From: Micromonospora sp. Llam0
GTDB lineage: Bacteria; Actinomycetota; Actinomycetes; Mycobacteriales; Micromonosporaceae
Assembly: GCF_003751085.1 (NCBI RefSeq)
Contig: NZ_RJJY01000001.1
Coordinates: 1,984,001 to 2,048,000 of the forward strand
Length of the DNA: 64,000 bases
Direction: 5' to 3'
Shown: positions 14,196 to 37,594 of the stretch, in pieces
Numbering within the stretch: the stretch's first letter is position 1
Layout: every line of letters begins with the position of its first letter
Notes under the pieces: model-generated
What the model saw: only the letters and a program-made list of their open reading frames with translations
Told to the model about the DNA's origin: nothing
Database searches by the model: none
Program-made: the position numbers and the translations under genes

Positions 14196-15344
14196 TTACG
14201 CGTGGTAGCCGTCGAGGCGGGACAGGACGTACAGCATGACTTCGTCTGGCCCGCCGCCGATCGACCATACGGGGCTGTCCCGGAAGTGCCGGGCGGTCCA
14301 CATCTCTTCCATGTACCCGACACCTCCGTGGAACTGCAGGCAGGTAGCGGAGATCTCGCGGGCCAGGCGGCCCACCTCAAGTTTCGCGACGGACGCGAAC
14401 CGGAGCACGTCCTCGCCTCGGATGTACGCATCCGCGGCTGCATAGTTGTAGTGCCGCAGAATGTCCAGCCGTGCGCTCAGCTCCGCGAGGGTGTAGTTGA
14501 TGTACTGGTTGTCGATCAAGGGCTTGCCATGGGCATGGCGGGTCTTCAGATAATCCGCAGTCCGGGTCAGGGCCGTCTCCATGCTGCCGACCGCGGCGTA
14601 ACACAACGCGAGGCGCTCGTTCTGAAATTGGCTCATCTGCTGGTAGAAGCCCAGGTTGATCTCGCCGATCGTGTTGCTGACCGGGACCCGCATGTCGGTG
14701 AATGTCAGCTCGGCGGTGTCGGAGGAGCGCATGCCGAGCTTGTCGAGCTTGCGGTGGACTTGGAAGCCAGGTGTGTCGGTAGGGACGACGATCTGCGTGA
14801 AGCTGCCATTTCCGGGCTCGTCGGACGTGCGGGCCAGCAGACAGATCCAGTCGGCCTGGATGCCGTTGGTGACATAGAGCTTCGAGCCGTTGATCACCCA
14901 GTTGTCGCCGTCGCGCACCGAGCGGGTGCGTATGGCGGCTACGTCGGATCCCGCATCGGGCTCGGTCACCGCGACAGAGCAGACCGCCTCGCCTTTGATC
15001 GCCGGGACCAGGTAATTGTGTTTGAGTTCCTCGCTGCCGAATTGGTGCAGGGACGGGGTCGCCATGTCTGTCTGGACGCCGATGCCCACAGCAACGCCAC
15101 AGGGGCCCACGCGGCCGAGCTCCTCGTGCAGGATCACCGTGAAGAGGTGGTCCGCGCCCTGGCCGCCGTACCTCTCGTCATACTCCACGCCGAGCAGGCC
15201 GAGTTGACCCATCTTCATGAACAGTTCGTGTGCGGGGAAGATTCCATTTGCCTCCCATTCCTCAGCGTACGGTCCGATTTCCTTTTCGGCGAAGTCGCGA
15301 ACCAGTTGACGAAAGGCATTGTGCTCGGCGGTGAAAGTTGCCAT
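14196..15344 (-). CDS. acyl-CoA dehydrogenase family protein in an NRPS-type cluster
   Basis: 382 residues with full family motifs: VAVTEPDAGSDVAAIRTRS, GSKLYVTNGIQADW, the KTRHAHGKPLID signature, LQFHGGVGYMEEM, and IGGGPDEVMLYVLSRL at the C-terminus. It is the last gene of the minus-strand run thioesterase, carrier protein, adenylation enzyme, FAD monooxygenase, dehydrogenase. In such settings related enzymes desaturate an aminoacyl or acyl thioester held on a carrier protein rather than a CoA ester. That role is inferred from context. 192 bp without a gene separate it from the FAD enzyme upstream. Confidence 0.88.
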   Translation of the reverse strand: MATFTAEHNAFRQLVRDFAEKEIGPYAEEWEANGIFPAHELFMKMGQLGLLGVEYDERYGGQGADHLFTVILHEELGRVGPCGVAVGIGVQTDMATPSLHQFGSEELKHNYLVPAIKGEAVCSVAVTEPDAGSDVAAIRTRSVRDGDNWVINGSKLYVTNGIQADWICLLARTSDEPGNGSFTQIVVPTDTPGFQVHRKLDKLGMRSSDTAELTFTDMRVPVSNTIGEINLGFYQQMSQFQNERLALCYAAVGSMETALTRTADYLKTRHAHGKPLIDNQYINYTLAELSARLDILRHYNYAAADAYIRGEDVLRFASVAKLEVGRLAREISATCLQFHGGVGYMEEMWTARHFRDSPVWSIGGGPDEVMLYVLSRLDGYHA

Positions 15345-15536
15345 TGTTCATCACTCCCGGATCGATCGAAGATCCACTTGACCTTGAGCCACGATTCGTT
15401 GACCTCGACAGCCACGGGTGCGAGGTCCCGTGATCGACAGCCAGCTTCCACGGCGACCGCAGGACGTTCTCCCTGTCCCGCCGATGTCCCGTACTACGCC
15501 TGGAGCTCGACGTGATCCGCGCGTCGCTGAGCGGCA

Positions 15537-16724
15537 TCACAGGAGGGCGAGCAGTTTGGGCGTGTAGAGCGCATCGATCGATGTGACTCCGGCTACCACG
15601 TCGAGGTAGATGCCGACGAGTTCCGGATCGGACTGCACGGCCCGCAGCAGGGCAAGCCGTTCCTCGTGGGCAGGGGCGAGCCGAGCGACGCCGAGCGTGG
15701 CTTGGTAGCCTGCGGCGAGTGTCGCGTCCCGGTCCCTGGCAAATCGAACCAGGGCCGCGTCGAGCTGCTCAGGGTCGCCGCCGAGTGTGCCTCCTACCTC
15801 GCGCACCAGGTTTTCCACCTGCAGGAAAGCGTCGCTCATGCCTCGCGCCGTGATGGAGTCCTTGTGGTGTCCGGCATCACCCACGAGTACCCATCCGGGC
15901 CCTGCCGCTTGCCGGAAGAAGTTTCGCTGGTCGCCGCTGCCGCTCAGACGCTCCACGGGCGTGCCGGCCCGCATCCGTTCGTACAGTGCCGGCGTGGTGG
16001 TGCGTATCTGCTCCTGGTAAGCGCGGCGTGCGTCGGCGCGGACCTCCTCGAAGCGGGATTGCGGGAAGTAGACCAGGACGAGGGTGGCGTCGTCGTTGGT
16101 GGGCACGGTCGCGACCCAGCTACCGGTCCGTTCGTACAGTTCCAGTTCGGCGGGGAGGTTCTGCCAGTACATGTAGTACGCGCAGGTCAGCAGCGGGTCC
16201 TGCACGCTGTGTGGGGCCTCCACCAGCTCGGCCACGGTGGAGCGCATACCGTCCGCGCCGATCACCAGACGCGCGTGTTCGGTGAAGCTCAGGCTTCCCT
16301 GCCGGCCCTCGACGCCGATGACCCGGCCCGCTCCGTCTCCCAGCAGGCCGGTCACCCGGCAGCGTTCACGATACTCGGCACCGGCCGTGGCGGCCGCGTC
16401 CACCAACAGGGCGTCCAGGACACGGCGCCGGGGGGCGAATTCCGTTGGCTGCCCCGACGCGCCCCGGGCGTACCCTTCGATGCGGATGTCGGCGACCTGG
16501 TAGGTCGTTCGCTGCAGTGGTGGGCAACCCGAGGCTCGGACCTGTTCCAGCAACCCCCAGCGGGCGAGTGCCGCGACTCCGGGCTGGTGGATGAGATGCG
16601 AGGAGAGGGTGTCGGAGCCATACGCCGACTTGTCGAGCACGAGTATCCGGTAGCCCGCTTGGGCCAGCAACATTGCGGTAGGTGCGCCAGCGCAGCGCGC
16701 CCCCACCACGATGGCGTCGTACAT
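15537..16724 (-). CDS. FAD-dependent monooxygenase/oxidoreductase of the mini cluster
   Basis: 395 residues. An N-terminal FAD-binding Rossmann fold reads VVGARCAGAPTAMLLAQAGYRILVLDKS, a GxRCAGxxxA variant of GxGxxG. LVIGADGMRS is the middle FAD contact, and VLVGDAGHHKDSITARGMSDAF is the second FAD (GD) motif. This variant is typical of geranylgeranyl-reductase-like or halogenase/hydroxylase-like enzymes from natural-product clusters. No tryptophan-halogenase WxWxIP motif is seen, so hydroxylation or dehydrogenation is likelier than halogenation. The substrate is plausibly the carrier-bound amino acid. The ATG at 16724 follows a GAGG about 7 nt upstream. Confidence 0.85.
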   Translation of the reverse strand: MYDAIVVGARCAGAPTAMLLAQAGYRILVLDKSAYGSDTLSSHLIHQPGVAALARWGLLEQVRASGCPPLQRTTYQVADIRIEGYARGASGQPTEFAPRRRVLDALLVDAAATAGAEYRERCRVTGLLGDGAGRVIGVEGRQGSLSFTEHARLVIGADGMRSTVAELVEAPHSVQDPLLTCAYYMYWQNLPAELELYERTGSWVATVPTNDDATLVLVYFPQSRFEEVRADARRAYQEQIRTTTPALYERMRAGTPVERLSGSGDQRNFFRQAAGPGWVLVGDAGHHKDSITARGMSDAFLQVENLVREVGGTLGGDPEQLDAALVRFARDRDATLAAGYQATLGVARLAPAHEERLALLRAVQSDPELVGIYLDVVAGVTSIDALYTPKLLALL

Positions 16725-16784
16725 GAGGATGCCTCATAACGGACGTTGGCGAGCCTGGCTCGGAGAGGGACAGAGAGAAGCGGA

Positions 16785-19133
16785 TCATTTTGCTGACGGT
16801 TCGCTCTGATGAATCCTGGCGCTGCTTGCGAACCAGCTGACAGGTCTGGCTATGGCCGAGAGTCGGCGTCGGTCGATTTTCCCGTTTGCCGTGACAGGCA
16901 TCTGATCCACAACCGCCCAGAGCGGGGGGACCATGTAGGACGGAAGGTGGTCACGTAAGCGCTCACTCAGCTCGGCGGGTGTGATAGCCTTCCCTGGCCT
17001 CAGCTCAACTGCGGCTATCAGCTTCTTGTCAACACTGTCGCCGTCCGTGACCGTCACGACCGAGTTTCTTACTTCCTCCTGAGCGTTCAAAGACTCACTG
17101 ATCGCAGGTAGCTCAATACGGAATCCACGGATCTTCACCTGGTCATCCTCCCGCCCCAGGAAGCGGAGTCGACCAGCCGCGTCGATGCGCACCATGTCAC
17201 CTGTTCGATAAAGTCGCTCAGGAACGTCAGGCGAGAATGAGCCAAACGCCTCGCCGGTTCCCTCTTCGTCCTCGAAGTAGCCGGCGGCAAGACCTTCTCC
17301 GGCGCAGTACAACTCACCGACAGCTCCGGGCATCAGCAGCCTTGCACGTTTGTCCAGAACATATACCCGCGTTCCCGGGACGGGTATCCCGATGGGAATC
17401 GGTCCATCAATTTCTGTCGAATCGCGAACCGAGTGTACTGTCGTGAAGGTGGTGTTTTCGGTTGGACCGTAGCCGTTTGTGACCACGAGACCCGGATTTT
17501 CCGTCAGGGCTTGTTTGATCTGTTCGTGGGGAACGATATCGCCACCGGTCAAAAGGTGCCGCAGGCTGCCAAATGGTTTTGTTGCGAATTCTTGAACAAG
17601 CCTGAAGAGACCTGCGGTGAGCCAGGCTACGGTTATTTGACGCTCCGCAAGAAAATCGCCTATTTCCATCGGGGACAGGTGGTCCGGTGGGCAGACTTCA
17701 AGGACCGAGCCCGTCAGCAGGCTGCCCCAGATTTCAAGCGTAGAGGCATCGAATGCGAGTGGCGACATCCGAAGGAAGCGTTCACCCGGGCCCAGCGTCA
17801 GGTATTTCCCACCGTGTACCAGTCGGATGATGCCGCGGTGCGGGATCGCCACGCCTTTGGGCTCACCTGTCGAGCCAGATGTGAAGGCAATATACGCCAG
17901 CCGGTTGGGGTCGGGACGGACGGGGGATACACTCTTGCCCTGGGCCACCCATCCTCGATGCCATGAACTGACCAAACGTACGTCGTGCGAGGCGATGCGG
18001 CTAGTCCCGTCGTCGGCGACGATCGCAGCAGCGGGAGAAGCCTTGGCAATTATCTTCGCAGTGTGGGAATCGGGTTGCGACAGGTCGATCCCAATATATA
18101 TGGAGCCCGTCCAGAGCGTCCCCAGCACTGCGACTGTCTCCGCCACCGACCGTGGAACTCCGATCAGCACGGTATCGCCCTCTCGGACGCCGGCAGCGCG
18201 CAGTAGATGCGCCTGTTCAGTTGCGGCCACGGCCAATTCAGAGTAGGTCAGCACCGACTCTGCGTCCCGCACGGCAGGTGCAGCCGGCCATCGCTGGGCC
18301 GCGCGGCGAAAAAGCTCGTCCACGGATGAAGAAGGAAAGACGCGACTCGTTTGATTGATGGTTTGGAGAATCTTCCGCGCTTCGGCGGAGATACACCGTA
18401 CATCCGCCAGCGTGATGTCGGATGGGTCTGCCGTCATCGAATCCAGAAGCTGGTCCACGGCGGCCAGGTAATCCGTGACGAACCTCTCCGCCTCGCCACC
18501 GTCCCACAAACCCGTTGCAAAGATTGCGTATCCTGAGAATGACTGAACTGAGTCATTCATTTCTATAGCGATATCGAACTCGGATCTGACGGCAACGACT
18601 TCCCCAGCTCGGGTCGTAGCAGGCTCAGCGTTAATCTCCTCCGGGCTTTCCCGGCCATGCACGGCAAAGAAGGTCTGGATGAGCGGATGACGTCGACCGT
18701 GCTGTTCCATGCCCAGCCGTGCTGCGACTGTACCGGATGGAACATTTCCCCTGTCCAGACTCCATGTCAGCGACTCGTGGACGGCATGGATGAACTCTTC
18801 CGGTCCGAAGTCATCGTTGACATCCAGACGGACCGGAACAGGCTTGCTGACACTGCCGACGCCGACAAGTAGAGTGCTTGCGCCGGTCAATCTGCTCAGC
18901 GTGAGGCCGAATGCAGCCAAGAGAATGGAGAGTGGAGGCACGCTCGATGTTTGCGATCGCCTACGCAGTAGCGTTGTGGTTTCCGCGGATATTTCGATGG
19001 GGAGTCGACTGCTGCGCGTGTCATGACGCGGATGGGGATTGTCTGATGGTATTTCCAGAACCGTCGGCACTCCCGCCAATCTCTCCAGCCACATTTCGAT
19101 TGTTTGCTCTTCCTGGTTGTCAAGTGTTTCCAT
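16785..19133 (-). CDS. NRPS: half condensation domain plus adenylation domain
   Basis: 782 residues. Residues 1-240 correspond only to the C-terminal half of a condensation domain: WLERLAGVPTVLEIPSDNPHP is the usual mid-domain segment, then HPLIQTFFAVHG and EFDIAIEM. The N-terminal half with HHxxxDG is absent. Residues 265-760 are a complete adenylation domain: AFTSGSTGEPKG (A3), FDASTLEIW (A4), NGYGPTENTTF (A5), YRTGDMVR (A7), and the catalytic Lys in NGKIDRRRL (A10). No carrier domain follows. Reading the pocket by eye gives D-A-L-W-L-G-G-T-F-K, close to the valine code D-A-F-W-I-G-G-T-F-K. It probably loads Val or a similar aliphatic residue onto the separate carrier protein. Base composition is clearly lower in G+C than its neighbours. 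Confidence 0.85.
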   Translation of the reverse strand: METLDNQEEQTIEMWLERLAGVPTVLEIPSDNPHPRHDTRSSRLPIEISAETTTLLRRRSQTSSVPPLSILLAAFGLTLSRLTGASTLLVGVGSVSKPVPVRLDVNDDFGPEEFIHAVHESLTWSLDRGNVPSGTVAARLGMEQHGRRHPLIQTFFAVHGRESPEEINAEPATTRAGEVVAVRSEFDIAIEMNDSVQSFSGYAIFATGLWDGGEAERFVTDYLAAVDQLLDSMTADPSDITLADVRCISAEARKILQTINQTSRVFPSSSVDELFRRAAQRWPAAPAVRDAESVLTYSELAVAATEQAHLLRAAGVREGDTVLIGVPRSVAETVAVLGTLWTGSIYIGIDLSQPDSHTAKIIAKASPAAAIVADDGTSRIASHDVRLVSSWHRGWVAQGKSVSPVRPDPNRLAYIAFTSGSTGEPKGVAIPHRGIIRLVHGGKYLTLGPGERFLRMSPLAFDASTLEIWGSLLTGSVLEVCPPDHLSPMEIGDFLAERQITVAWLTAGLFRLVQEFATKPFGSLRHLLTGGDIVPHEQIKQALTENPGLVVTNGYGPTENTTFTTVHSVRDSTEIDGPIPIGIPVPGTRVYVLDKRARLLMPGAVGELYCAGEGLAAGYFEDEEGTGEAFGSFSPDVPERLYRTGDMVRIDAAGRLRFLGREDDQVKIRGFRIELPAISESLNAQEEVRNSVVTVTDGDSVDKKLIAAVELRPGKAITPAELSERLRDHLPSYMVPPLWAVVDQMPVTANGKIDRRRLSAIARPVSWFASSARIHQSEPSAK

Positions 19134-19250
19134 CAGTCACCTCTCCTGCCGGACGTCTTGCCCCCTCGCTGCTGCGAAAACAGCCGTACGGAACCCAGGC
19201 TGGAGGGAAGTACCACGATTTTCCACAAGCGGGCGGGAGCCCATTGCGGG

Positions 19251-19538
19251 TTAACCTGAGGTTTTCCCGAGATTCTCGCTCATCAGTTGACTGAGGACGG
19301 CGGCCTGGCCCTGGACGGTTGGGGATCGGAGGACGTGAGTGGCCTTGATTGCGAGTCCGGAGGATTTCGCGAGCTTCGCGACGAGAGAGATGAGCACGAA
19401 CGAGTCGCCGCCCGCGTCAAAGAAACTGGTGTCGTCATTGAACGTGTCGTGACCAAGCGTATTTCGCCAGACGGAACGGACAAGATGGATGAGTTCGGAT
19501 GGAACCGGGGCCTGTTCATCAGCATGCGGAGAATTCAT
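19251..19538 (-). CDS. stand-alone peptidyl carrier protein
   Basis: About 95 residues with one carrier-protein fold. The phosphopantetheine attachment motif is SFFDAGGDSFVLISLVAKL, where the Ser of GGDSF takes the arm. It lies 117 bp upstream of the adenylation gene, which lacks its own carrier, and is therefore the likely in-trans acceptor. GGAAG six nt before the ATG at 19538 favours this start over an ATG at 19550. No phosphopantetheinyl transferase is encoded nearby. Confidence 0.9.
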   Translation of the reverse strand: MNSPHADEQAPVPSELIHLVRSVWRNTLGHDTFNDDTSFFDAGGDSFVLISLVAKLAKSSGLAIKATHVLRSPTVQGQAAVLSQLMSENLGKTSG

Positions 19539-26207: not shown

Positions 26208-27374
26208 TCACCGTGGTGTGCCCGGTCGGGGGACGTGGTTGACGAACACGACGCCGTCGACCGTGTCGAGCCGTGCCGGGTCCAGCGGGAAGTAGGCGAA
26301 GTCCGGGCTGACCCGTGGGACGGCTCCGGTGAGGGTCCGGGTCAGTCGGCGGGTCTCGACGAGGCAGGTGTCCCACGGCAGGGCGGCCAGGACACCTTCG
26401 ACGGTGTCCGGCGGTGGGGTGTCGTCGCCGAGGGTGCCGAGGGCGGAGGCCAGGTAGGCGTACCGGTCGCCGAGGCGGGCCGCGGTGATCGCGCCCGCAC
26501 TCCACATTCGCAGCTGCTGGTCGCCGAACGACATGACGCTGCGGTTGCGCTGCAGGTGCAGGTTGTGGGCGAAGACTAGGGCGGGGCCGTGGTCGGCGAC
26601 GGCCCGTAGGTTGGCGGCCATCATCGCGTCCCGCAGCGCCGACAGCCGGGCGATCCGGGTCGGGGACGGGTCGGCCATCGCGTGGTGGTAGCGGAGCAGA
26701 CCGACGGCGGTACGCCCGTACAGTTCCGCCCGTTCGCGGTCGGTGGCGTCCAGCTGCGGTGCCTGGGTGTCGAGCAGCGCCAGCAGGTCGTCGGTGATCA
26801 GCCGGAGCTGTTGGGCGTCGGTGGACCGGCCGATCGACCGGGACGGGTCGGTGACGGTGGCCGGGTCGGACCAGCGGTCGTCCGGGCCGAGCAGTGTGTC
26901 GAGAGTGTCCCGGGTGCCCGGTGGCGGGCCGTCGAGCAGGTCGTGCAGGCCGGTGAGTGCCTGGCGTGGGCTGGCCGCCCAGTACTCCAGGGGGCCGTCG
27001 AAGCCGTGGAACCGTAGTTTGTCGTCGTGGTCGTCGTTGTAGGCCCGCATCCAGCTGACGAGGTCGCGGTTGGCCGGTGAGGTGCCGAACTGGTGGCTGA
27101 AGCCGTGACGCATGACGTCGTCGAGGGTGCCGGTGCCCGTCGTGACGTACTCGTCGACGACGAGGCCCATCAGGCAGTCGCTTTCGACGGCGATCGACCG
27201 GTAGCCCTCGTGGGTGACGAGGTGCCGGAAGATCTCGTTGCGCAGCTGGCCGAGTTCCGCCACGAAGTGCCGGGCCTCGCCGAGGCCGAGCAGCAGGGGT
27301 CGGGCGGGCAGCGACCGCAGGAATGCCGAGATGCCCGCGCCGTCGGCGGGTCGGGCGGTGTCCGTGATATCCAT
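26208..27374 (-). CDS. erythromycin esterase family protein
   Basis: 388 residues with the EreA/EreB-type fold. LLLGLGEARHFVAEL carries the Glu-His active-site pair (family GExTH), IAVESDCLMGLVVDEYV the second acidic site, MRAYNDD and LRFHGFDGPLEYW the middle landmarks, and VFAHNLHLQRNRS the later His region. The family includes macrolide esterases and many enzymes of unknown substrate, so resistance is possible but not proven. A 7-bp-arm palindrome lies 3 nt upstream of the start codon, between it and the divergent MerR-type regulator. Confidence 0.85.
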   Translation of the reverse strand: MDITDTARPADGAGISAFLRSLPARPLLLGLGEARHFVAELGQLRNEIFRHLVTHEGYRSIAVESDCLMGLVVDEYVTTGTGTLDDVMRHGFSHQFGTSPANRDLVSWMRAYNDDHDDKLRFHGFDGPLEYWAASPRQALTGLHDLLDGPPPGTRDTLDTLLGPDDRWSDPATVTDPSRSIGRSTDAQQLRLITDDLLALLDTQAPQLDATDRERAELYGRTAVGLLRYHHAMADPSPTRIARLSALRDAMMAANLRAVADHGPALVFAHNLHLQRNRSVMSFGDQQLRMWSAGAITAARLGDRYAYLASALGTLGDDTPPPDTVEGVLAALPWDTCLVETRRLTRTLTGAVPRVSPDFAYFPLDPARLDTVDGVVFVNHVPRPGTPR

Positions 27375-30039: not shown

Positions 30040-30273
30040 ATGCCTGTGCTCACCCTCGACTGCCGGCAGGGCAACGACCGCCGGATCCGGGCGACCCTTC
30101 GGGCCGAGCTGACCGCTGTGGTCGCCCGGATCATCGGCTGCCCGCCGGAGGCGGTGACGGTGGTGATCCGCGACTGTGAACCCGGGTACCGCCGCGTGCC
30201 GGCCGCGAGTCACACGCCGTTGCCCGACGGGATGCCCAGTTGGTCGAACTCTGCGGCGGCCCGGCCCCGGTAG
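30040..30273 (+). CDS. 4-oxalocrotonate tautomerase-like protein
   Basis: 77 residues starting MPVLTLDCRQGNDRRI, with Pro-2 becoming the catalytic N-terminal proline after Met removal. RATLRAELTAVVARIIGCPPEAVTVVIRDCEPG is the helix-strand core of the 4-OT superfamily. AAAGGAGG lies 7 nt upstream of the ATG. Family similarity stops near residue 56. The last 20 codons run antisense to the end of the TPR gene on the other strand, suggesting that the original 3' end was replaced when the TPR fragment arrived. Confidence 0.7.
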   Translation: MPVLTLDCRQGNDRRIRATLRAELTAVVARIIGCPPEAVTVVIRDCEPGYRRVPAASHTPLPDGMPSWSNSAAARPR

Positions 30274-31150
30274 TCGTCGGCGGCTTCGGTGTCTCCGCCT
30301 GCCCGCAGCGTCGCCGACAGGCCTGCGAGAGCCCGGGCCGCCTCGATCCGGTAGCCGACCCCGGTGGCTATGTCGTGGGCCGCGGTGTGCAGATCGGTTG
30401 CCGCCGCGTACTTTCCCTGGCCGCGGTACACCCTGCCGAGGATGTTGCGCACCGTGGCCTGCCGCAGGGGGGCGCGGCTGCTGCCGTCGAGTTCCAGGGC
30501 CCGTTGCGCGTGCCGCATCGCTGCGGCGTTCTCGCCCAGTCGGTGCCGGACCTGGGCGTACAGGGCGTGCACGCGTGACATCTCCGCGGCCGGCGCGGAC
30601 TCCGCGTTGAGTTCGAGCACCCGGTCGAGGCAGCTGCCGGCCTGTTCGTCCTGGTCCATCGCGAGGTGGGCGACGGCCAGATCGGTCAGTGCGAGGGCTT
30701 CCATGTCCCAGGCACCGATCCGGTGGTTCAGCTCGATGGCGTGGCGGGCCGCCTCGGCCGCCTCCTGGTAGCGGCCGCAGTGTTCGTGCAGGCTGCTGAG
30801 GTCGGTCAGCGACTGGGCTTCCGCTCGGTACGCGCCCAGTTCGTGCTTGAGTCCGATGGAACGCCGCAGGTGTGCCCGCGCCTCGTCGTAACGGCCCAGT
30901 GTGGCGAGTAGCAGGCCGAGCATTCCGGTGCTCTGCGCTTGCCCTGTTCTGTCGTGGAGGGCCACGGCGAGGTCCAGGCTTTCCTCGGTCGCCGTGAGGC
31001 CGTCGTGGAGCCGACCCAGCCGCCAGGCTGCGGCCGCCACATCGGACAGACCGCGCGCCAGCAGTGACTGGTCGTGCAGGGCGCGGGCACACTCGACGCC
31101 CAGGGTCGCGATGCGGTGGAACTCCTCGAACCGGCCGCGGTACGGATCCG
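30210..31150 (-). pseudogene. TPR-repeat protein lacking its N-terminus
   Basis: About 310 codons of clear TPR sequence: ALHDQSLLARGLSDVAAAAWRLGRLHDGL, QSTGMLGLLLATLGRYDEARAHLRRSIGLKHELGA, LSSLHEHCGRYQEAAEAARHAIELNHRIG, and further repeats to GIPSGNGV. Such C-terminal arrays belong to large SARP or NB-ARC regulators, but the N-terminal DNA-binding and NTPase parts are missing. The similarity begins abruptly at about 31150, exactly where the LysK part of the neighbouring fusion gene ends in another frame. The frame stays open to 31628 only as a shadow of LysK. No good independent start or ribosome-binding site was seen. Confidence 0.7.
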
Positions 31151-32521
31151 GTCCAGCGCCCCGGTGAGCCGGTCGGGGGCGGACACCGCCTGGAATCCCG
31201 CCGAGTGGCCACTGGGCACGGCCGCGGTCACCCGCAGTTTGAACAGGCCGAAGTAGCCCAGCGTCAGGGCGCCGGAGCCGCTCGGCTCGCCCACCACGAC
31301 CGCGTCCGCCGGGTAGTGGTCGCGGACGTGGAACGCGCCCCGCGACGAGGACACCTCCTCCTCGACGGCGCCGACGACGCGCAGGCGCCAGCCGTCGGGG
31401 ACGTCGGTGCTCGCCAGCACGTCCAGGAACGCGGTCAGCGAGGCCTTCGCGTCCACCGTGCCGCGTCCGTGCAGGACCGCCGGGTCGTCGCCGGTCCAGC
31501 GCACCGGCCAGGTGAACGGCACGGTGTCGAGATGGCCGAGCAGCAGCAGCGTCCGGGGTCCGTCGCCGCGCTCGGCGACCAGGTTGCCCACCTCGTCGAC
31601 CCGGGCGGTCAGGCCCCGGTCGCGGCACCAGCCGGCGAGGTAGGCGGCCAGTTCGTGCTCGTCGTGGGAGACCGACGGGATCTGCGCGGCGCGGCTGAGC
31701 AGGCGCAGGTCCGCGGCGGGTTCCTCGGTGGCCCAGAAACGGGTCCAGCCGCGGTCGTCGGCCATCGTGTGCGGTCCGGTGATGGCCACGTGGGCGGTTC
31801 CGCGCAGCGCCAGTTCCGCGGCGCGCACCTTCTGCCGCATCCGGCCGGTGGCGTACCGGCCGCAGTCGCCGGCGACCGCGTCCCGGACGGTCGAGGTCGG
31901 CTCGGCCGGGTCGCTCAACACCCCCGGCGTGCCGGTGACCAGCCGCAGGTGGTCGGCGTCGAGCGCGTTGGCGAGGGTCGCGGCCAGCACGTCGGCGTCG
32001 ACGTTGAGTTCGGCGCCACCGGCCGCGTCACGGACCGGAGGGCTCAGGCAGACCACGTCGTACGCGTCGAGCAGGGCGGTGAGCCGCGCCGCGTCGACTC
32101 CGGACACGGTGCCCGCCCGGTGGTCGTGGACGATCTTGGGTCGGCCGTCGCGAACCACCCGCAGCGGCCGGTTGGCGGTGCCGGTCACCAGCGCGGCGTC
32201 GGCGGCTACGCAGGCGTGCGCCGCGAGGCCGTGCGCCGCCAGCCCCGCCTCCACCGCCGGCAGGGTGATCTGCCGGTAGGCGGCGACGATGTGCGGCATC
32301 TCCGTCGGCGGGCAGTACCGGACGGTGTCGCCGTTGCCGAGGGTGAGCTGCGGCATGTCCCGGCCCGCCGAACGGTAGTACCGCTCGATGCCTTCGGCCC
32401 CGCCGGCCACCATGAGTACCCGGGCGCCGCGCGCCCGGATCGCCGCGATCTCGGCGAAGACGCCGGGGTGCAGCAGGGTGCTGCTGCCGATCTTGATGAC
32501 GTACAGCGACCGGCGGCTCAT
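30806..32521 (-). CDS. LysZ-like kinase fused to a truncated LysK-like M20 peptidase
   Basis: Residues 1-268 are an amino-acid-kinase fold close to LysZ, the carrier-protein-bound aminoadipate/glutamate kinase: LYVIKIGSSTLLHPG, VMVAGGAEGIERYYR, HACVAADAALVTGTANRP, and INITG-type C-terminal region VRAAELALRGTAHVAITG. Residues 270-457 are an M20 metallopeptidase like LysK: LLLGHLDTVPF, GRGTVDAKASL, VEEEVSSSRGA and VVGEPSG supply four of the usual five metal or catalytic positions. Similarity ends at DRLTGALDRIRT (about 31150); the remaining 114 codons are out of frame with a TPR gene. The last catalytic His region of M20 is therefore lost. The ATG overlaps the lysY-like stop (ATGA). Confidence 0.8.
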   Translation of the reverse strand: MSRRSLYVIKIGSSTLLHPGVFAEIAAIRARGARVLMVAGGAEGIERYYRSAGRDMPQLTLGNGDTVRYCPPTEMPHIVAAYRQITLPAVEAGLAAHGLAAHACVAADAALVTGTANRPLRVVRDGRPKIVHDHRAGTVSGVDAARLTALLDAYDVVCLSPPVRDAAGGAELNVDADVLAATLANALDADHLRLVTGTPGVLSDPAEPTSTVRDAVAGDCGRYATGRMRQKVRAAELALRGTAHVAITGPHTMADDRGWTRFWATEEPAADLRLLSRAAQIPSVSHDEHELAAYLAGWCRDRGLTARVDEVGNLVAERGDGPRTLLLLGHLDTVPFTWPVRWTGDDPAVLHGRGTVDAKASLTAFLDVLASTDVPDGWRLRVVGAVEEEVSSSRGAFHVRDHYPADAVVVGEPSGSGALTLGYFGLFKLRVTAAVPSGHSAGFQAVSAPDRLTGALDRIRTAAGSRSSTASRPWASSVPAPCTTSHCWRAVCPMWRPQPGGWVGSTTASRRPRKAWTSPWPSTTEQGKRRAPECSACYSPHWAVTTRRGHTCGVPSDSSTNWARTERKPSR

Positions 32522-33540
32522 GGCGTCACCGCCGTGAACGGCAGGGCCAGGGACTGTTCGAATCCGTACAGCAGGTTCAGCGTCTGCACCGCCTGGCCGG
32601 ACGCGCCCTTGAGCAGGTTGTCCAGCGCGGCGACCGCGACGTACTCGTCGTCACGGACGCTCACCGCGACCTCCGCGACGTTGCTACCCACCACACTCTT
32701 GAGCATCGGGAAGTCTCCCGGGCTCTTCGGCGCGGTGCGTGCCCGCACGAACGGTGTCCGGGCGTACGCCGTGCCGTAGGCCCGTTTGACCTGCAGCGCG
32801 GACACGCCGGGACGCAGCCGCCCGTACGCGGTGACCACGATGCCCCGGGCCACGTCGAGGCTGTAGGTGGAGAACCGCAGCCGCGGTGGCTCGCCGGTGA
32901 CCGCGCCGAGTGCCTGGGCGATCTCCGGTGCGTGCCGATGGCCGTACGGCTTGTGGACCCGGAAGTTGCCGATCCGGTCGGCGGGGTGCTCGCTGGACCG
33001 GCTGCCGCTGCCGCTGGCGCCGGTCTTCGCGTCGACGACGACGTCGCCTGCGGTCAGCCCTGCGGCGACCAGCGGCCGCAGTGCGTACAAGGTGGTGACG
33101 GCCATGCAGCCGGGCAGGTTGATGAACCGGTCCTCGACCGGCGGTTCGTCGAACTCCGGGACGACGTACCGGAACGGTTCGGTCCACGCCTGCGACTCGG
33201 GGTAGTGCGCGGCGGCCTGCCCGGGGTCGGTGAGGCGGAAGTCCCCGGCCAGGTTGATCACCCGCTGGGCCCGTTCGGCGAGCTTGGGCATCTGGGCGGG
33301 CAGGGCGCCGCCCGGCAGGCAGCCGAACGCCACGTCGACCTCGTCGACCGCGTCGACGGGCTGGAACCGCAGCCCGGCCGCGCGGGGATGGTTGCGCACC
33401 CCGGCCAGCACCGATGTGATCGGTCGGCCGGTGTGCCGTTCGCTGGACAGGTAGGTCAGTTCCACGTGCGGGTGGTCCAGCAGCAGCCGGACCAGTTCGG
33501 CGCCGGTGTAACCGCTGGCGCCCAGGACCGCGACCCGCAC
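32518..33540 (-). CDS. LysY/ArgC-type acyl-phosphate reductase
   Basis: About 340 residues. VRVAVLGASGYTGAELVRLLL is the NADP-binding start, and FINLPGCMAVTTLYALRPL contains the catalytic Cys in PGCxA. VDAKTGASGSGSRSSEHP, VHKPYGHRHAPEI and the basic His region are those of the ArgC/LysY family. In LysW-type pathways this enzyme reduces the carrier-bound acyl phosphate to the semialdehyde. The GTG at 33540 gives the usual short N-terminus; TTG at 33558, overlapping the aminotransferase stop, is an alternative. It sits between the DegT aminotransferase and the kinase fusion, matching the order of chemistry. Confidence 0.88.
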   Translation of the reverse strand: MRVAVLGASGYTGAELVRLLLDHPHVELTYLSSERHTGRPITSVLAGVRNHPRAAGLRFQPVDAVDEVDVAFGCLPGGALPAQMPKLAERAQRVINLAGDFRLTDPGQAAAHYPESQAWTEPFRYVVPEFDEPPVEDRFINLPGCMAVTTLYALRPLVAAGLTAGDVVVDAKTGASGSGSRSSEHPADRIGNFRVHKPYGHRHAPEIAQALGAVTGEPPRLRFSTYSLDVARGIVVTAYGRLRPGVSALQVKRAYGTAYARTPFVRARTAPKSPGDFPMLKSVVGSNVAEVAVSVRDDEYVAVAALDNLLKGASGQAVQTLNLLYGFEQSLALPFTAVTP

Positions 33541-33550
33541 CGCGCTGCGC

Positions 33551-34870
33551 TCAGCCAAGACGGGCCGCCTTCTCGTAGGGCCGCCGGTACTCACGCTCGG
33601 CGACGAGCTTGCGGATGGCGTCGGGGCGGGCCGCGACCTTGCGGAACGCGTCGGCGTACCGGATCACCCGCTCGTACTCCACCGGCGAGCGCAGCTCCCG
33701 GCAGAGCACGACGGTGCTCTCCAGCATCGACACGACGTTCGGGAAGTCGGTCGGTTGGTGGTCGCGGACCGCGTCCGGGTTCAGCGTGAACGGATACCCG
33801 TTGCCGAACCCGTCGCGGTGGCGGAACGGCAGGTGGCACGGGATCGGCGTGTTCTGCCACTCGCGGGCCGGGACACCCTCGGCGGTGAGCAGCTCGTGCA
33901 CCGCCTCCTTGACCGCCCACACGGGCAGGTCGTCGAGGCCGACCACGGCCGGGGCGAGCCCGACGCGGTACATGTTGTAGGCGTGGGTGTGCCCGTCGGG
34001 CACGTAGGGGGCGGTGAACAGGCCGGTCTCGCCGAGCGCACCGGCCAGCAGCGCGGCGTTGCGGGCCCGGACCGCGTCGTAGTACGGCAGCCGCTTGAGC
34101 TGGCTCGCCCCGAACGCCGCCGCCACCCAGGACATCCGGTAGTCGATGCCGGTGCGCTCCAGGAACTCCGTCGCCCGGGCGTACGCGGCGTCGGAGCCGA
34201 AGAACGCGATGCCGCCCTCGCCGCCCAGCGGGAAGTTCTTGTCCGCCATCAGGCTCTGTCCGGCGGCGTCACCGAGCGAACCGCACATCCGCTCGCCGAT
34301 CCGCGCGGAGTGCGCGTGTGACGCGTCCTCCACCAGGGCCAGGCCGTGCCGCTGGCACACCTGGCGCAGCGCCGCCACGTCGGCGGGCAGCCCGTGCACG
34401 TGCACGGGCATGATCGCCCTGGTCCGCCCGGTGACCGCCGCCTCGGCGGCCTGCGGCGACATGCAGTACGTGCGCGGGTCGATGTCGACGAACACGGGTA
34501 CGGCCTTCGCGGCGACGACGGCCTGCGCGGTGGCGATGAACGTGAACGCCGGCACGATGACCTCGTCGCCGGGCTGCACCCCGGCACCGATCAGCGCCAG
34601 GTGCAGGCTGGAGGTACCGCTCGCGGTCGGCAGCGCGTGCCGGGCACCGACGTAGTCGCGGTAGTCGCCGGCGAAGTCCGCGACGACCTTGTCCGGGTCG
34701 TTGCGCTGCGCCAGCAGCATGGTGAACACGTCCTCCTTGGTGATCACCGGGAAGACGGTGCGGCGCTGCCCGGACGCGATCATCGCCGGGCCGCCGAACT
34801 GGGCGAGTTCAACGTCGACGTCCCGCTCGTCGGGCAGCGGCAGCGGGGCCGACGGGAAGTCAGTGATCAT
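33551..34870 (-). CDS. DegT/DnrJ/EryC1/StrS-family PLP aminotransferase
   Basis: 439 residues, full-length for the sugar/cyclitol aminotransferase family. PTASGTSSLHLALIGAGVQPGDEVIVPAFTF is the cofactor phosphate region and LALVEDASHAHSARI contains the PLP-contacting Asp. ADKNFPLGGEGG has the Schiff-base Lys. The C-terminal half continues with DYRMSWVAAAFGASQLKRL. In the classical LysW pathway a class III enzyme (LysJ) aminates the aldehyde; a DegT enzyme in that place is unusual and suggests a different substrate. The ATG overlaps the stop of the half-size DegT-like gene (ATGA), so the two are translationally coupled. Confidence 0.88.
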   Translation of the reverse strand: MITDFPSAPLPLPDERDVDVELAQFGGPAMIASGQRRTVFPVITKEDVFTMLLAQRNDPDKVVADFAGDYRDYVGARHALPTASGTSSLHLALIGAGVQPGDEVIVPAFTFIATAQAVVAAKAVPVFVDIDPRTYCMSPQAAEAAVTGRTRAIMPVHVHGLPADVAALRQVCQRHGLALVEDASHAHSARIGERMCGSLGDAAGQSLMADKNFPLGGEGGIAFFGSDAAYARATEFLERTGIDYRMSWVAAAFGASQLKRLPYYDAVRARNAALLAGALGETGLFTAPYVPDGHTHAYNMYRVGLAPAVVGLDDLPVWAVKEAVHELLTAEGVPAREWQNTPIPCHLPFRHRDGFGNGYPFTLNPDAVRDHQPTDFPNVVSMLESTVVLCRELRSPVEYERVIRYADAFRKVAARPDAIRKLVAEREYRRPYEKAARLG

Positions 34871-35502
34871 CGCTGGGTACCTCCGGTCACTGCGGGCGTA
34901 CGGGTGCCGGCCTGCATCAGCGCCATCCGGACACAGGCGGCGACCAGCGGGCTCAGCCGGTAGTTGAACTGGACACCCGGCGCCAGGCCGGGTTCGGCCT
35001 CCTGCTGCGTCCACATGGTGCGCAGGTCGAAGGCACCGAAGATCTTCAGCCGCTCGGCGCGGGCCCAGATCCGTTCGTCGTCGGTGAGCATCGCCGCCGC
35101 CGGGCCGAAGCCGAGGCCGGTCAGGTCCACGGCCAGCGCCGGCGCGGTGCGGTTGCGCGCGACCGCGGCGAACTCGTCGACGTTGTCCGGGGTCAGGCTG
35201 ATCAGGTCGAACGCCGGGATCGGACCGTCGCTGGCCCGTACCCCGAGCCAGTCGACGAACGAGGCGGCGGCCGGGTCGAGCCCGGGCAGTACGGCCGCGT
35301 CGCCGTGTCCGATGCCCTGCCCGCACAGCGCCGCGTGGACCGCGGCGGTGCGGCTGTTGACCAGGACCGCCCGGGACCGGCCGCTGCGTCTGGTCAGCAG
35401 CCGTTCCAGTGCCGGTAGTTCCTTGTCGTTCTTCTCGATGCTCATCACCACGCCGGAGGTCAGCACCCGGGTGAGGACGAGCGCGGTGTCGAACCGTTCC
35501 AT
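34867..35502 (-). CDS. half-size DegT-aminotransferase-like protein
   Basis: 211 residues. SRAVLVNSRTAAVHAALCGQGIGHGDAAVLPG aligns with the TASGTSSLHLALIGAGVQPGDEVIVPA segment of the next gene, and QFNYRLSPLVAACVRMALMQAG with the FNYRLS-type C-terminal region of DegT enzymes. Between them the domain is strongly shortened. ERLKIFGAFDLRTM has one Lys at roughly the position of the Schiff-base Lys, but the GEGG context is gone. It may be a non-catalytic partner of the full DegT enzyme, forming a heteromer. AAGGAAG precedes the ATG at 35502. Function is unproven. Confidence 0.65.
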   Translation of the reverse strand: MERFDTALVLTRVLTSGVVMSIEKNDKELPALERLLTRRSGRSRAVLVNSRTAAVHAALCGQGIGHGDAAVLPGLDPAAASFVDWLGVRASDGPIPAFDLISLTPDNVDEFAAVARNRTAPALAVDLTGLGFGPAAAMLTDDERIWARAERLKIFGAFDLRTMWTQQEAEPGLAPGVQFNYRLSPLVAACVRMALMQAGTRTPAVTGGTQR

Positions 35503-35571
35503 CGGGTCTTCCTTTCTGCGGCCGCCCGCGTCGGCCCGGCGCGGGCGGCCGCCGCAGTAACGAGATTGAGA

Positions 35572-36453
35572 TCAGGCGGCGAGGGTGAGCCCGGAGCGCG
35601 CCACCTGGGTCGCGTACGCCACGCAGTGGCCGGCCACGTCCACGCCGTGGGTGTCGGAGGATCGGGCGAACTCGGGGTTCGCGTTGACCTCCAGCACCAC
35701 CATCGCGCCGGTGGCACGGTCCTCGATCAGGTCCACGCCGTAGAAGCCGGGGCCCAGCGCGGCGACGACGTCGGCACAGAGCCGGCCGATCTCCGCGCAG
35801 ATCTCCACGCGTTCCACCTGGGCTCCCAGGTGGGTGTTGGTACGCCAGTGTTCGCTGCGCCGCCGGAACGCGACGACCGGACGCTCACCCACGACGATGA
35901 CGCGCAGGTCGTGGCCGGGCTTGTCGACGTACCGCTGTACCAGCACGGGGAACAGCTTGCCGGCCGCGTCGGCGGACTCCCGGCCGCCGGTCCACGCCTC
36001 CAGCTCGCCCTGGTCGCACAGCCGGACGACGCCCCGGCCCCAGGACCCGGACGGTGGTTTCACCACCACCGGCCAGCCGAGTTCCGCCACGGCCTGGCGC
36101 ACCTGGTCGTGGGTGAACGCGTGCCGGGTCGTCGGATGCCCGATGCCGTGCCGATCGAACAGCAGCGCCTGCAGGCCCTTGTCGCCGCAGACCTCGATCG
36201 CCGAGGCGCTGTTGACGGTGGTGATCCCGGCCCGCTCCAGACGCCGGGCGATGCTCAGCGCCTCGCGGTGCGACAGGTTCCTGATCAGCGCGACCCGGGG
36301 CGGCTCCTCGCAGCCGGAAAGCACCTCGCCGATGTCGGGTGGCAGTGCCGGGCGGGCGGACAGGCCCTGCGCGCGCAGGGCGCCCAGGAGCCGCCGTTCC
36401 TCCGGGCGCAGCACCGTCACCGACAGCAGGACGTCGGTAGGCGCGCCGCTCAT
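35572..36453 (-). CDS. LysX/RimK-type ATP-grasp ligase for the carrier protein
   Basis: 293 residues. VALIRNLSHREALSIARRLERAGITTVNSASAIEVCGDKG matches the N-terminal half of LysX/RimK ligases. WPVVVKPPSGSWGRGVV is the ATP-binding loop, and HDLRVIVVGERPVVAFRRRSEHWRTNTHLGA plus VVLEVNANPEF supply the ATP-grasp metal and RimK motifs. LysX-type enzymes join the alpha-amino group of a substrate to the C-terminal Glu of LysW. The start ATG at 36453 overlaps the carrier-protein stop, so carrier and ligase are made together. About 70 bp separate it from the half-size DegT gene. Confidence 0.9.
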   Translation of the reverse strand: MSGAPTDVLLSVTVLRPEERRLLGALRAQGLSARPALPPDIGEVLSGCEEPPRVALIRNLSHREALSIARRLERAGITTVNSASAIEVCGDKGLQALLFDRHGIGHPTTRHAFTHDQVRQAVAELGWPVVVKPPSGSWGRGVVRLCDQGELEAWTGGRESADAAGKLFPVLVQRYVDKPGHDLRVIVVGERPVVAFRRRSEHWRTNTHLGAQVERVEICAEIGRLCADVVAALGPGFYGVDLIEDRATGAMVVLEVNANPEFARSSDTHGVDVAGHCVAYATQVARSGLTLAA

Positions 36454-36641
36454 TCGCCCCAGTCCTCCTCCACCTCCGGTGCGATGCAGACCTCGTACAC
36501 GCCGTCGGCCGCCGCCGTCAGTTCGTGCTCCTGGCCGCATGCCGAGCACTCGATGATTTCGCCCTTCTCGGCGTCGCCGTCGATGGTGAGCGGGCTGTCG
36601 CAGACGAGGCAGACCACAGCTTTGTCGGCGATAACCGGCAT
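36450..36641 (-). CDS. LysW-like amino-group carrier protein
   Basis: 63 residues starting MPVIADKAVVCLVCDSPL. Two CxxC knuckles (CLVC and CSAC, residues 11-14 and 32-35) form a zinc ribbon. The acidic tail ends in EEDWGE, matching the EDWGE C-terminus by which LysW-type carriers form an isopeptide bond from the last Glu to a substrate amine. The protein is very acidic, as are known carriers. It leads the operon; AGGAAGAAGG precedes the ATG at 36641. An in-frame ATG at 36716 would add 25 residues without similarity. Confidence 0.92.
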   Translation of the reverse strand: MPVIADKAVVCLVCDSPLTIDGDAEKGEIIECSACGQEHELTAAADGVYEVCIAPEVEEDWGE

Positions 36642-36808: not shown

Positions 36809-37594
36809 TCAGTCCAGCAGCGCGGCCGTCCAGTCCGCTGCCCGGTCGCCGATGTGCTCGGCGTCGCGGCGCCAGGTCTCGCCGTGGCCGTCGTCCCACA
36901 GCCGGGTCCATGGCAGCACGCCGGCGGCCGACTGCTCGGCGAGGAAGTCGTGCATCGACCGGGCCCGGCGGGCCAGCAGCGGGACGAGGTCACGGCGCTG
37001 GCGTTCGTCGAGGCGGTACGCGTCGACGAGGGTCCGTAGCCGGCGGGCGGCGTCGGGGCGCTGCCAGGCGGGGTCGGCGGTCAGCGGCACGAACGCCTTG
37101 GCCGCGTAGGCGAGGTCCCACAGCCGGGTGCCCGGCGCGGCGGTGTCCCAGTCGATGAAGGCCCAGCGGTCACCGACGACCAGGTTCCAGGGCGCGAGGT
37201 CGTGGTGGACGACCAGATCGGTGCCGTCGGGTGGGATGAGCCGCCGCCAGACGGCACCCGGTGGTGGGGTGAAGCTGGCGGCCGCGTCGTGCAGGTCGCG
37301 TACGAGCCGGCCGACCCGGCGCAGGGCCGCGTCCGGGCCGAGCAGGTCGAACCGGTCCGGCCAGGGGACCGTTCCGGGCAGGTAGGTCAGCACCTCGCGG
37401 CCGGCGGCGTCGACGCCGAGCGGTCGGGGTGCGCCGCCGAACCCGACGTCGTGCAGGTGGGCGAGGAAGGCGTACACAGCGGGGGTCCACGCGCCGGCGG
37501 GTCGGCGGACCGTGTCGCCGACCCGGACGACGGCGTCGGCGACGTTGCCGCCGGTTAGCGGCTGTTCCGGTGGGCTGTCGGCGGGGGTGGGCAC
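36809..37594 (-). CDS. aminoglycoside phosphotransferase (APH)-fold protein
   Basis: 261 residues with a kinase-like fold. The catalytic loop VVHHDLAPWNLV (HxDxxxxN) and the metal-binding WAFIDWDTAAPGTRLWDLAY (IDW/D) are intact. The N-lobe is short (VVRVGDTVRRPAGAWTPAVYAFLAHL). Members phosphorylate aminoglycosides, choline-like compounds or other small molecules; nothing here fixes the substrate. It ends 167 bp upstream of the carrier-protein gene on the same strand but appears to be a separate unit. Confidence 0.85.
   Translation of the reverse strand: MPTPADSPPEQPLTGGNVADAVVRVGDTVRRPAGAWTPAVYAFLAHLHDVGFGGAPRPLGVDAAGREVLTYLPGTVPWPDRFDLLGPDAALRRVGRLVRDLHDAAASFTPPPGAVWRRLIPPDGTDLVVHHDLAPWNLVVGDRWAFIDWDTAAPGTRLWDLAYAAKAFVPLTADPAWQRPDAARRLRTLVDAYRLDERQRRDLVPLLARRARSMHDFLAEQSAAGVLPWTRLWDDGHGETWRRDAEHIGDRAADWTAALLD

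Follow-up and report, generated by a model that had tools for sequence, protein, structure and literature searches.

A LysW-type carrier cluster of Micromonospora sp. Llam0 as a probable deletion remnant of a conserved nine-gene cassette

Do six adjacent genes built around a LysW-type amino-group carrier in Micromonospora sp. Llam0 make up a working biosynthetic pathway? The genes lie within a 64,000-nucleotide stretch of contig NZ_RJJY01000001.1 (positions 1,984,001 to 2,048,000), which we call the window and whose numbering we use. Genome mining would list the locus as a carrier-protein cluster, and an original prediction made from the sequence alone had described a carrier, a LysX-type ligase, a half-size DegT protein, a DegT aminotransferase, a LysY-type reductase, and a LysZ-type kinase as one pathway on the minus strand. 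We found that the families and their arrangement stand. The claim of a working pathway does not, as the LysK hydrolase is truncated and the locus lacks two transketolase genes that all 71 relatives have. We concluded that the six genes represent the 5' part of a carrier cassette of the transketolase type and are most likely a deletion-inactivated remnant of a secondary-metabolite cluster, and we put the probability of this at roughly 0.83.

The LysZ-LysK fusion and its junction

An open reading frame (ORF) check of the window confirmed all six ORFs where the original prediction had placed them (Table 1), together with ATGA overlaps at carrier/ligase, half-DegT/DegT, and reductase/kinase. The last ORF had been called a LysZ-type kinase. 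Its kinase domain was confirmed (PF00696, 66 bits), but the ORF is a LysZ-LysK fusion that ends in an out-of-frame regulator: residues 271-464 match [LysW]-lysine hydrolase (LysK, M20 family). We found that the LysZK part is identical at 451 of 462 residues to an intact 627-aa protein of Solwaraspora sp. WMMD937. Beyond residue 462 of 627 the two no longer match, which leaves no intact LysK-type hydrolase, and from residue 463 the chimeric ORF reads regulator sequence out of frame. Read in the other frame, the DNA past the junction encodes a match to the C-terminal part (residues 726-1040) of the SARP regulator of an intact relative, G095, with 63% identity over 315 residues; that regulator is a 1051-aa protein with BTAD, NB-ARC, and TPR domains. 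In DNA alignments to the G095 genes, the LysK and SARP homologies meet within one CCGCGG at 31140-31135. Past the junction, the codon-position GC is 0.79/0.50/0.82 in the SARP frame, the usual high-GC coding pattern, and 0.50/0.82/0.78 in the continued LysK frame. This fits regulator coding and supports a deletion.

The genes of G095 lie on one strand in the order lysW, lysX, half-degT, degT, argC, lysZK, tktN, tktC, permease, SDR, and SARP. An intact cluster of the window's subtype lies on a linear 273-kb Streptomyces camelliae plasmid (NZ_CP115301.1; L154, 10815-24615); by the plasmid's record annotation it has G095's order plus one opposite-strand regulator before the SARP gene. The two junction points lie ~7.5 kb apart in G095. 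Because intact relatives carry the end of LysK, the transketolase pair, the permease, the SDR, and the full SARP there, it appears that one ~7.5-kb deletion between two CCGCGG copies fused lysK to the SARP gene. Such a deletion would have removed the C-terminal part of LysK, including the conserved GPGDSxLDHT motif, as well as tktN and tktC, the permease and SDR genes, and the larger part of the regulator gene.

We found no close copy of TktN, TktC, the permease, the SARP N-terminal part, or LysK elsewhere in the genome; the SDR was not searched for. The best own-genome matches reached 36% for TktN, 34% for TktC, 42% for the SARP N-terminal part, and 33% over most of the permease, which also had a single 56-residue stretch matching at 50%. 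LysK had no own-genome match outside the locus at E 0.001. The closest relatives are much more alike, at 63-75% for TktN, 63-79% for TktC, and 73-81% for the permease. The permease match at 31% in locus L117 is not of the window-subtype kind. Split transketolase genes beside a cassette were found neither in the window nor in the genome. The 36% TktN and 34% TktC matches are themselves adjacent (G000:C2:1710026-1711265), apparently another split transketolase without LysW.

These results bear on two other explanations. The junction could be an assembly artefact, with an intact cluster in the strain itself. Consistently with this, WMMD937 has an intact LysZK that is 98% identical, and the other genes of the block look undamaged. 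The missing parts, however, are nowhere else in an assembly of two contigs rated 100% complete, and we consider an artefact unlikely. Alternatively, the six genes could be a complete working pathway. The DegT pair would then act directly on a carrier-bound semialdehyde, giving an ornithine- or lysine-like building block that some other hydrolase sets free. LysW through ArgC (five ORFs) and the LysZ domain are indeed open and full length, but LysK is cut, a search of the genome gave no second LysK-like match at E 0.001, and all 71 relatives have TktN and TktC. We regard a complete pathway as very unlikely.

Several points weigh against inactivation by deletion. CCGCGG was not seen at the corresponding places of the S. 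camelliae genes, so the microhomology is taken from G095 alone. The remaining ORFs have no stop or frameshift, unlike an old remnant. The junction was read from a single assembly without reads, and mis-assembly is possible. Our protein best-match lists comprised the best 120 of 326, 120 of 472, and 120 of 7008 proteins. No Solwaraspora-labelled TktN was among the best 120 of 7008, only the intact LysZK of WMMD937 was seen, and the WMMD937 cluster may differ from those of the intact relatives. Finally, the product that we propose below, an amino acid like 2,6-diamino-5,7-dihydroxyheptanoic acid (DADH), rests on analogy.

Table 1. Features of the carrier locus, in window coordinates
Feature	Position	Strand	Details
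lysW-type amino-group carrier	36450..36641	-	63 aa; two CxxC pairs; C-terminus EDWGE; PF21344
lysX-type ATP-grasp ligase	35572..36453	-	PF08443; TIGR02144 below cut-off; ATGA overlap with lysW
Half-size DegT protein	34867..35502	-	211 aa; without catalytic middle; N180-Y-R182 kept; partial PF01041
Full-size DegT aminotransferase	33551..34870	-	439 aa; K211 and D182; PF01041; ATGA overlap with half-DegT
ArgC/LysY-type reductase	32518..33558	-	TTG start assumed; TIGR01850 above cut-off
Chimeric ORF	30806..32521	-	571 codons: complete LysZ, first ~200 LysK residues, then out-of-frame regulator sequence
Junction CCGCGG	31135..31140	-	Common to lysK side and SARP side; DNA alignments to G095 lysZK and SARP genes
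SARP regulator gene relic, 3' part (TPR repeats)	30210..31140	-	Frame differs from lysK; G095 SARP alignment, TPR families

Directly upstream of lysW is a gene for an APH-type phosphotransferase family protein (window 36809-37594, minus strand). We rejected it as a cluster member; it had no match in the fetched loci besides the window's own DNA. AziR, a resistance protein of APH-like class, is mentioned for azinomycin in the available text of PMC9570651. Elsewhere in the window, a small nonribosomal peptide synthetase-like group (14196-19538, minus strand) comprises a condensation-adenylation protein (16785-19133), a separate carrier protein (19251-19538), an FAD-binding oxidoreductase (15537-16724), and an acyl-CoA dehydrogenase (14196-15344). 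An Erythromycin-esterase family protein (PF05139, 155 bits) is encoded at 26208-27374 (minus strand).

Distribution of the cassette and its place in metabolism

The original prediction had proposed looking for conserved clusters in genomes. We used an alignment of 17 half-DegT sequences to search a single genome of each species and counted as half-DegT relatives those proteins with the peptide ERLKIFGA or DLRTMWTQ; 112 stretches matched, 72 encode a relative, and these are 71 distinct loci. The locus counts rest on translated searches, as GC-based gene calls were rough and put several ORFs on the wrong strand. All 71 other half-DegT loci also match DegT, ArgC, LysZ, LysK, TktN, and TktC, and LysK extends in each to at least residue 349 of 362. 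LysW matches in 67 loci and LysX in 68. The nine genes are all present in identical order in 67 of the 71 loci, which indicates that the arrangement is not chance. Three of the four exceptions (L056, L058, and L118) begin at a contig edge, and the matches of the fourth, L120, are fragmentary. DegT is partial in L078, where the best match covers only 135 residues. The carrier features named in the original prediction, two CxxC pairs and a C-terminal EDWGE, are both seen in the window's LysW; the relatives' LysW proteins end in ExWGE in 67 of 67 cases (EDWGE in 39, ETWGE in 27, and ESWGE in 1).

Among the hosts are Streptomyces, Kitasatospora, Nocardiopsis, Saccharothrix, Paenibacillus, Chromobacterium, Chitinimonas, Kosakonia, and Prodigiosinella. 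A blood isolate of Staphylococcus epidermidis has the whole cassette, from LysW to the split transketolase, on a plasmid (NZ_CP043848.1; L155, 12966-21686), followed by an ATP-grasp protein; its half-DegT is 40% identical to the window's. In Enterobacter sp. EA-1 (L120, 9249-16396), the cassette matches come in several pieces with no LysW match, and we take this to be a decaying copy or poor sequence. Loci L142 and L143 match LysW-LysX-ArgC-LysZ-LysK-TktN-TktC and an SDR (47-48%), with no half-DegT or DegT match, and we read them as a subtype in which amination or reduction is done by a different step.

What follows the nine genes varies. A gene of an L-amino-acid-ligase-type ATP-grasp cluster, one member of which was tested by Pfam, is found in 59 of the 71 loci, which suggests that these loci make dipeptides. 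Permease, SDR, and SARP matches follow tktC instead in G095, S. camelliae, L051, L052, L053, L058, and L062.

Within the window's own family, a LysW relative is found in 38 of 354 genomes (own included); the genus's 6 other genomes gave none. Among 30 short LysW loci of the family, 6 (own included) have a half-DegT match; a seventh match, in L029, is weak and lies over a DegT match. The other LysW loci of the family have LysX, ArgC, LysZ, or transketolase matches without half-DegT, so half-DegT marks a subtype.

LysX-type ligase, LysZ-type kinase, and LysY/ArgC-type reductase stand together in one operon, and homologues of this set with LysW serve primary lysine or arginine synthesis in other organisms. 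We found, however, that the genome has a second argC adjoining argJ (C1:1600738-1602938) and a dapB. These separate genes rule out the block as a primary lysine or arginine operon and support a carrier cluster of secondary-metabolite type, as the original prediction had it. Family searches of the block found DegT proteins only and no LysJ-type class III aminotransferase; no genome-wide LysJ search was made. The sparse distribution of LysW in genus and family also speaks against a primary pathway, which we consider extremely improbable. The LysW gene is single copy in the genome. The LysW and LysX scores are both under the NCBIfam cut-offs for primary-pathway proteins: the carrier scores 31.9 bits with PF21344 (cut-off 27) and 51.7 with NF041070 (cut-off 75), and the ligase scores 86.4 bits with PF08443 and 213 with TIGR02144 (cut-off 275.6). 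The reductase is over its cut-off (TIGR01850, 265 bits against 233.6). The secondary-metabolite reading is also supported by two intact clusters of the window's subtype, which close with permease, SDR, and SARP genes.

The aminotransferase pair and the proposed chemistry

The original prediction had placed the DegT pair at the amination step and had called this unusual. We found that the adjacent genes are homologous to both subunits of the PDB 8Y96-type aminotransferase: the full DegT matches chain A (E 1.8e-162, 545 bits), and the half-DegT matches chain C (E 1.3e-64). The placement is upheld by this homology. The pair is not new, as the structure was solved in 2024 and the same pair occurs in 71 other loci; 8Y96 rules it out as a new aminotransferase type.

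The full DegT (PF01041, 226 bits) has its catalytic lysine, K211, and aspartate, D182, each conserved in 71 of 72 alignment rows, with one gap. DegT enzymes use an asparagine of the partner subunit near pyridoxal phosphate (PLP), and the full DegT has D243 at the position where other DegT proteins carry Asn. The half subunit is without the catalytic segment; its PF01041 match is confined to residues 12-76 and involves only the N-terminal portion of that family model. When half-DegT and DegT were compared as profiles, no more than 43 columns aligned, at a probability of 30, and the comparison was not used. The sequence homology supports the idea that the pair would fill the amination slot as one hetero-oligomer. 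The gain is a residue-level prediction of how two DegT subunits share one active site.

We based the reaction steps of intact members on the usual LysW reaction order, the families, and the gene order. LysX would couple glutamate to the C-terminal Glu of LysW; phosphorylation by LysZ and reduction by ArgC would then give a carrier-bound semialdehyde. The split transketolase (TktN and TktC) would add a two-carbon ketol unit, the half-DegT/DegT hetero-oligomer would aminate the new ketone, and LysK would release a DADH-like amino acid. By analogy, the intact cassette probably makes such a diamino-dihydroxy acid on the carrier, because of the N2-acetyl-DADH adduct of Fic25, the carrier-made DADH of other pathways, and the transketolase and aminotransferase of azinomycin (all discussed below). 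In the window, which has a cut LysK and no transketolase, the route most likely comes to a halt on the carrier.

The comparison reveals that a nine-gene cassette with a half-size and a full-size aminotransferase subunit is well conserved and is common to Actinobacteria, Firmicutes, and beta- and gammaproteobacteria and in some cases borne on plasmids. A broader model, to which we give even odds, is that this module makes one carrier-bound DADH-like building block with an obligate split-active-site aminotransferase, the half subunit supplying the Asn/Arg motif lost by its catalytic partner. Hosts would finish the block differently, many with an L-amino-acid ligase and the window's subtype with permease, SDR, and SARP, and the window would be a natural deletion mutant. 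The product is best sought in the intact clusters of other actinomycetes, Paenibacillus, and the Serratia/Prodigiosinella strain.

Comparison with known systems

The window's cluster is probably an inactive member of an already known kind. The nearest system is the hetero-oligomeric aminotransferase of Serratia sp. ATCC 39006 (PDB 8Y96, 8Y97, and 8Y98, named so in the titles of 8Y96 and 8Y98; released 2024-12-18), whose half- and full-size DegT subunits are both homologous to the window's. Locus L110 encodes the crystallised Serratia half subunit (198 of 198 residues compared) as part of the same nine-gene cassette. Its half-DegT and the window's share 46% identity, and the window's cassette, unlike L110's, is truncated. 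In open-licence PMC papers, to which the literature search was limited, we recognised no paper on the half-DegT/DegT cassette or the Serratia structure.

Fic25 of Streptomyces ficellus belongs to the ficellomycin pathway and is not known to need a half-size partner. It is a DegT enzyme that acts on a DADH-type compound (PDB 8GYH, 8GYI, and 8GYJ; the title of 8GYJ names a PLP-N2-acetyl-DADH adduct). It is far more distant from the window's DegT, at 242 bits versus 545 for 8Y96 chain A.

For vazabitide A and s56-p1, the available text of two papers describes DADH made on an amino-group carrier, and for the azinomycin DADH route a transketolase pair and an aminotransferase are named in review (PMC9303977, PMC9570651). 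As described there, these pathways likewise build on a carrier, while the window is without the transketolase pair; the likeness is one of description, not of cluster sequence. In the iso-maleimycin cluster BGC23a of Streptomyces sp. QL37, LysW and RimK homologues are required for a secondary metabolite; it differs in that the neighbours named in the available text are an isopropylmalate synthase and an AMP ligase (PMC12022981). Streptomyces sp. QL37 also encodes a LysZ-LysK protein of the window's type (P0201, among the best 120 of 472 matches).

LysW-dependent lysine and arginine biosynthesis, which occurs in Thermus and archaea, shares homologues of LysW, LysX, LysY, LysZ, and LysK with the cassette. 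It differs in the amination step, where the DegT pair replaces the class III aminotransferase LysJ, in the split transketolase genes of the relatives, and in the separate primary pathways that the Micromonospora genome carries.

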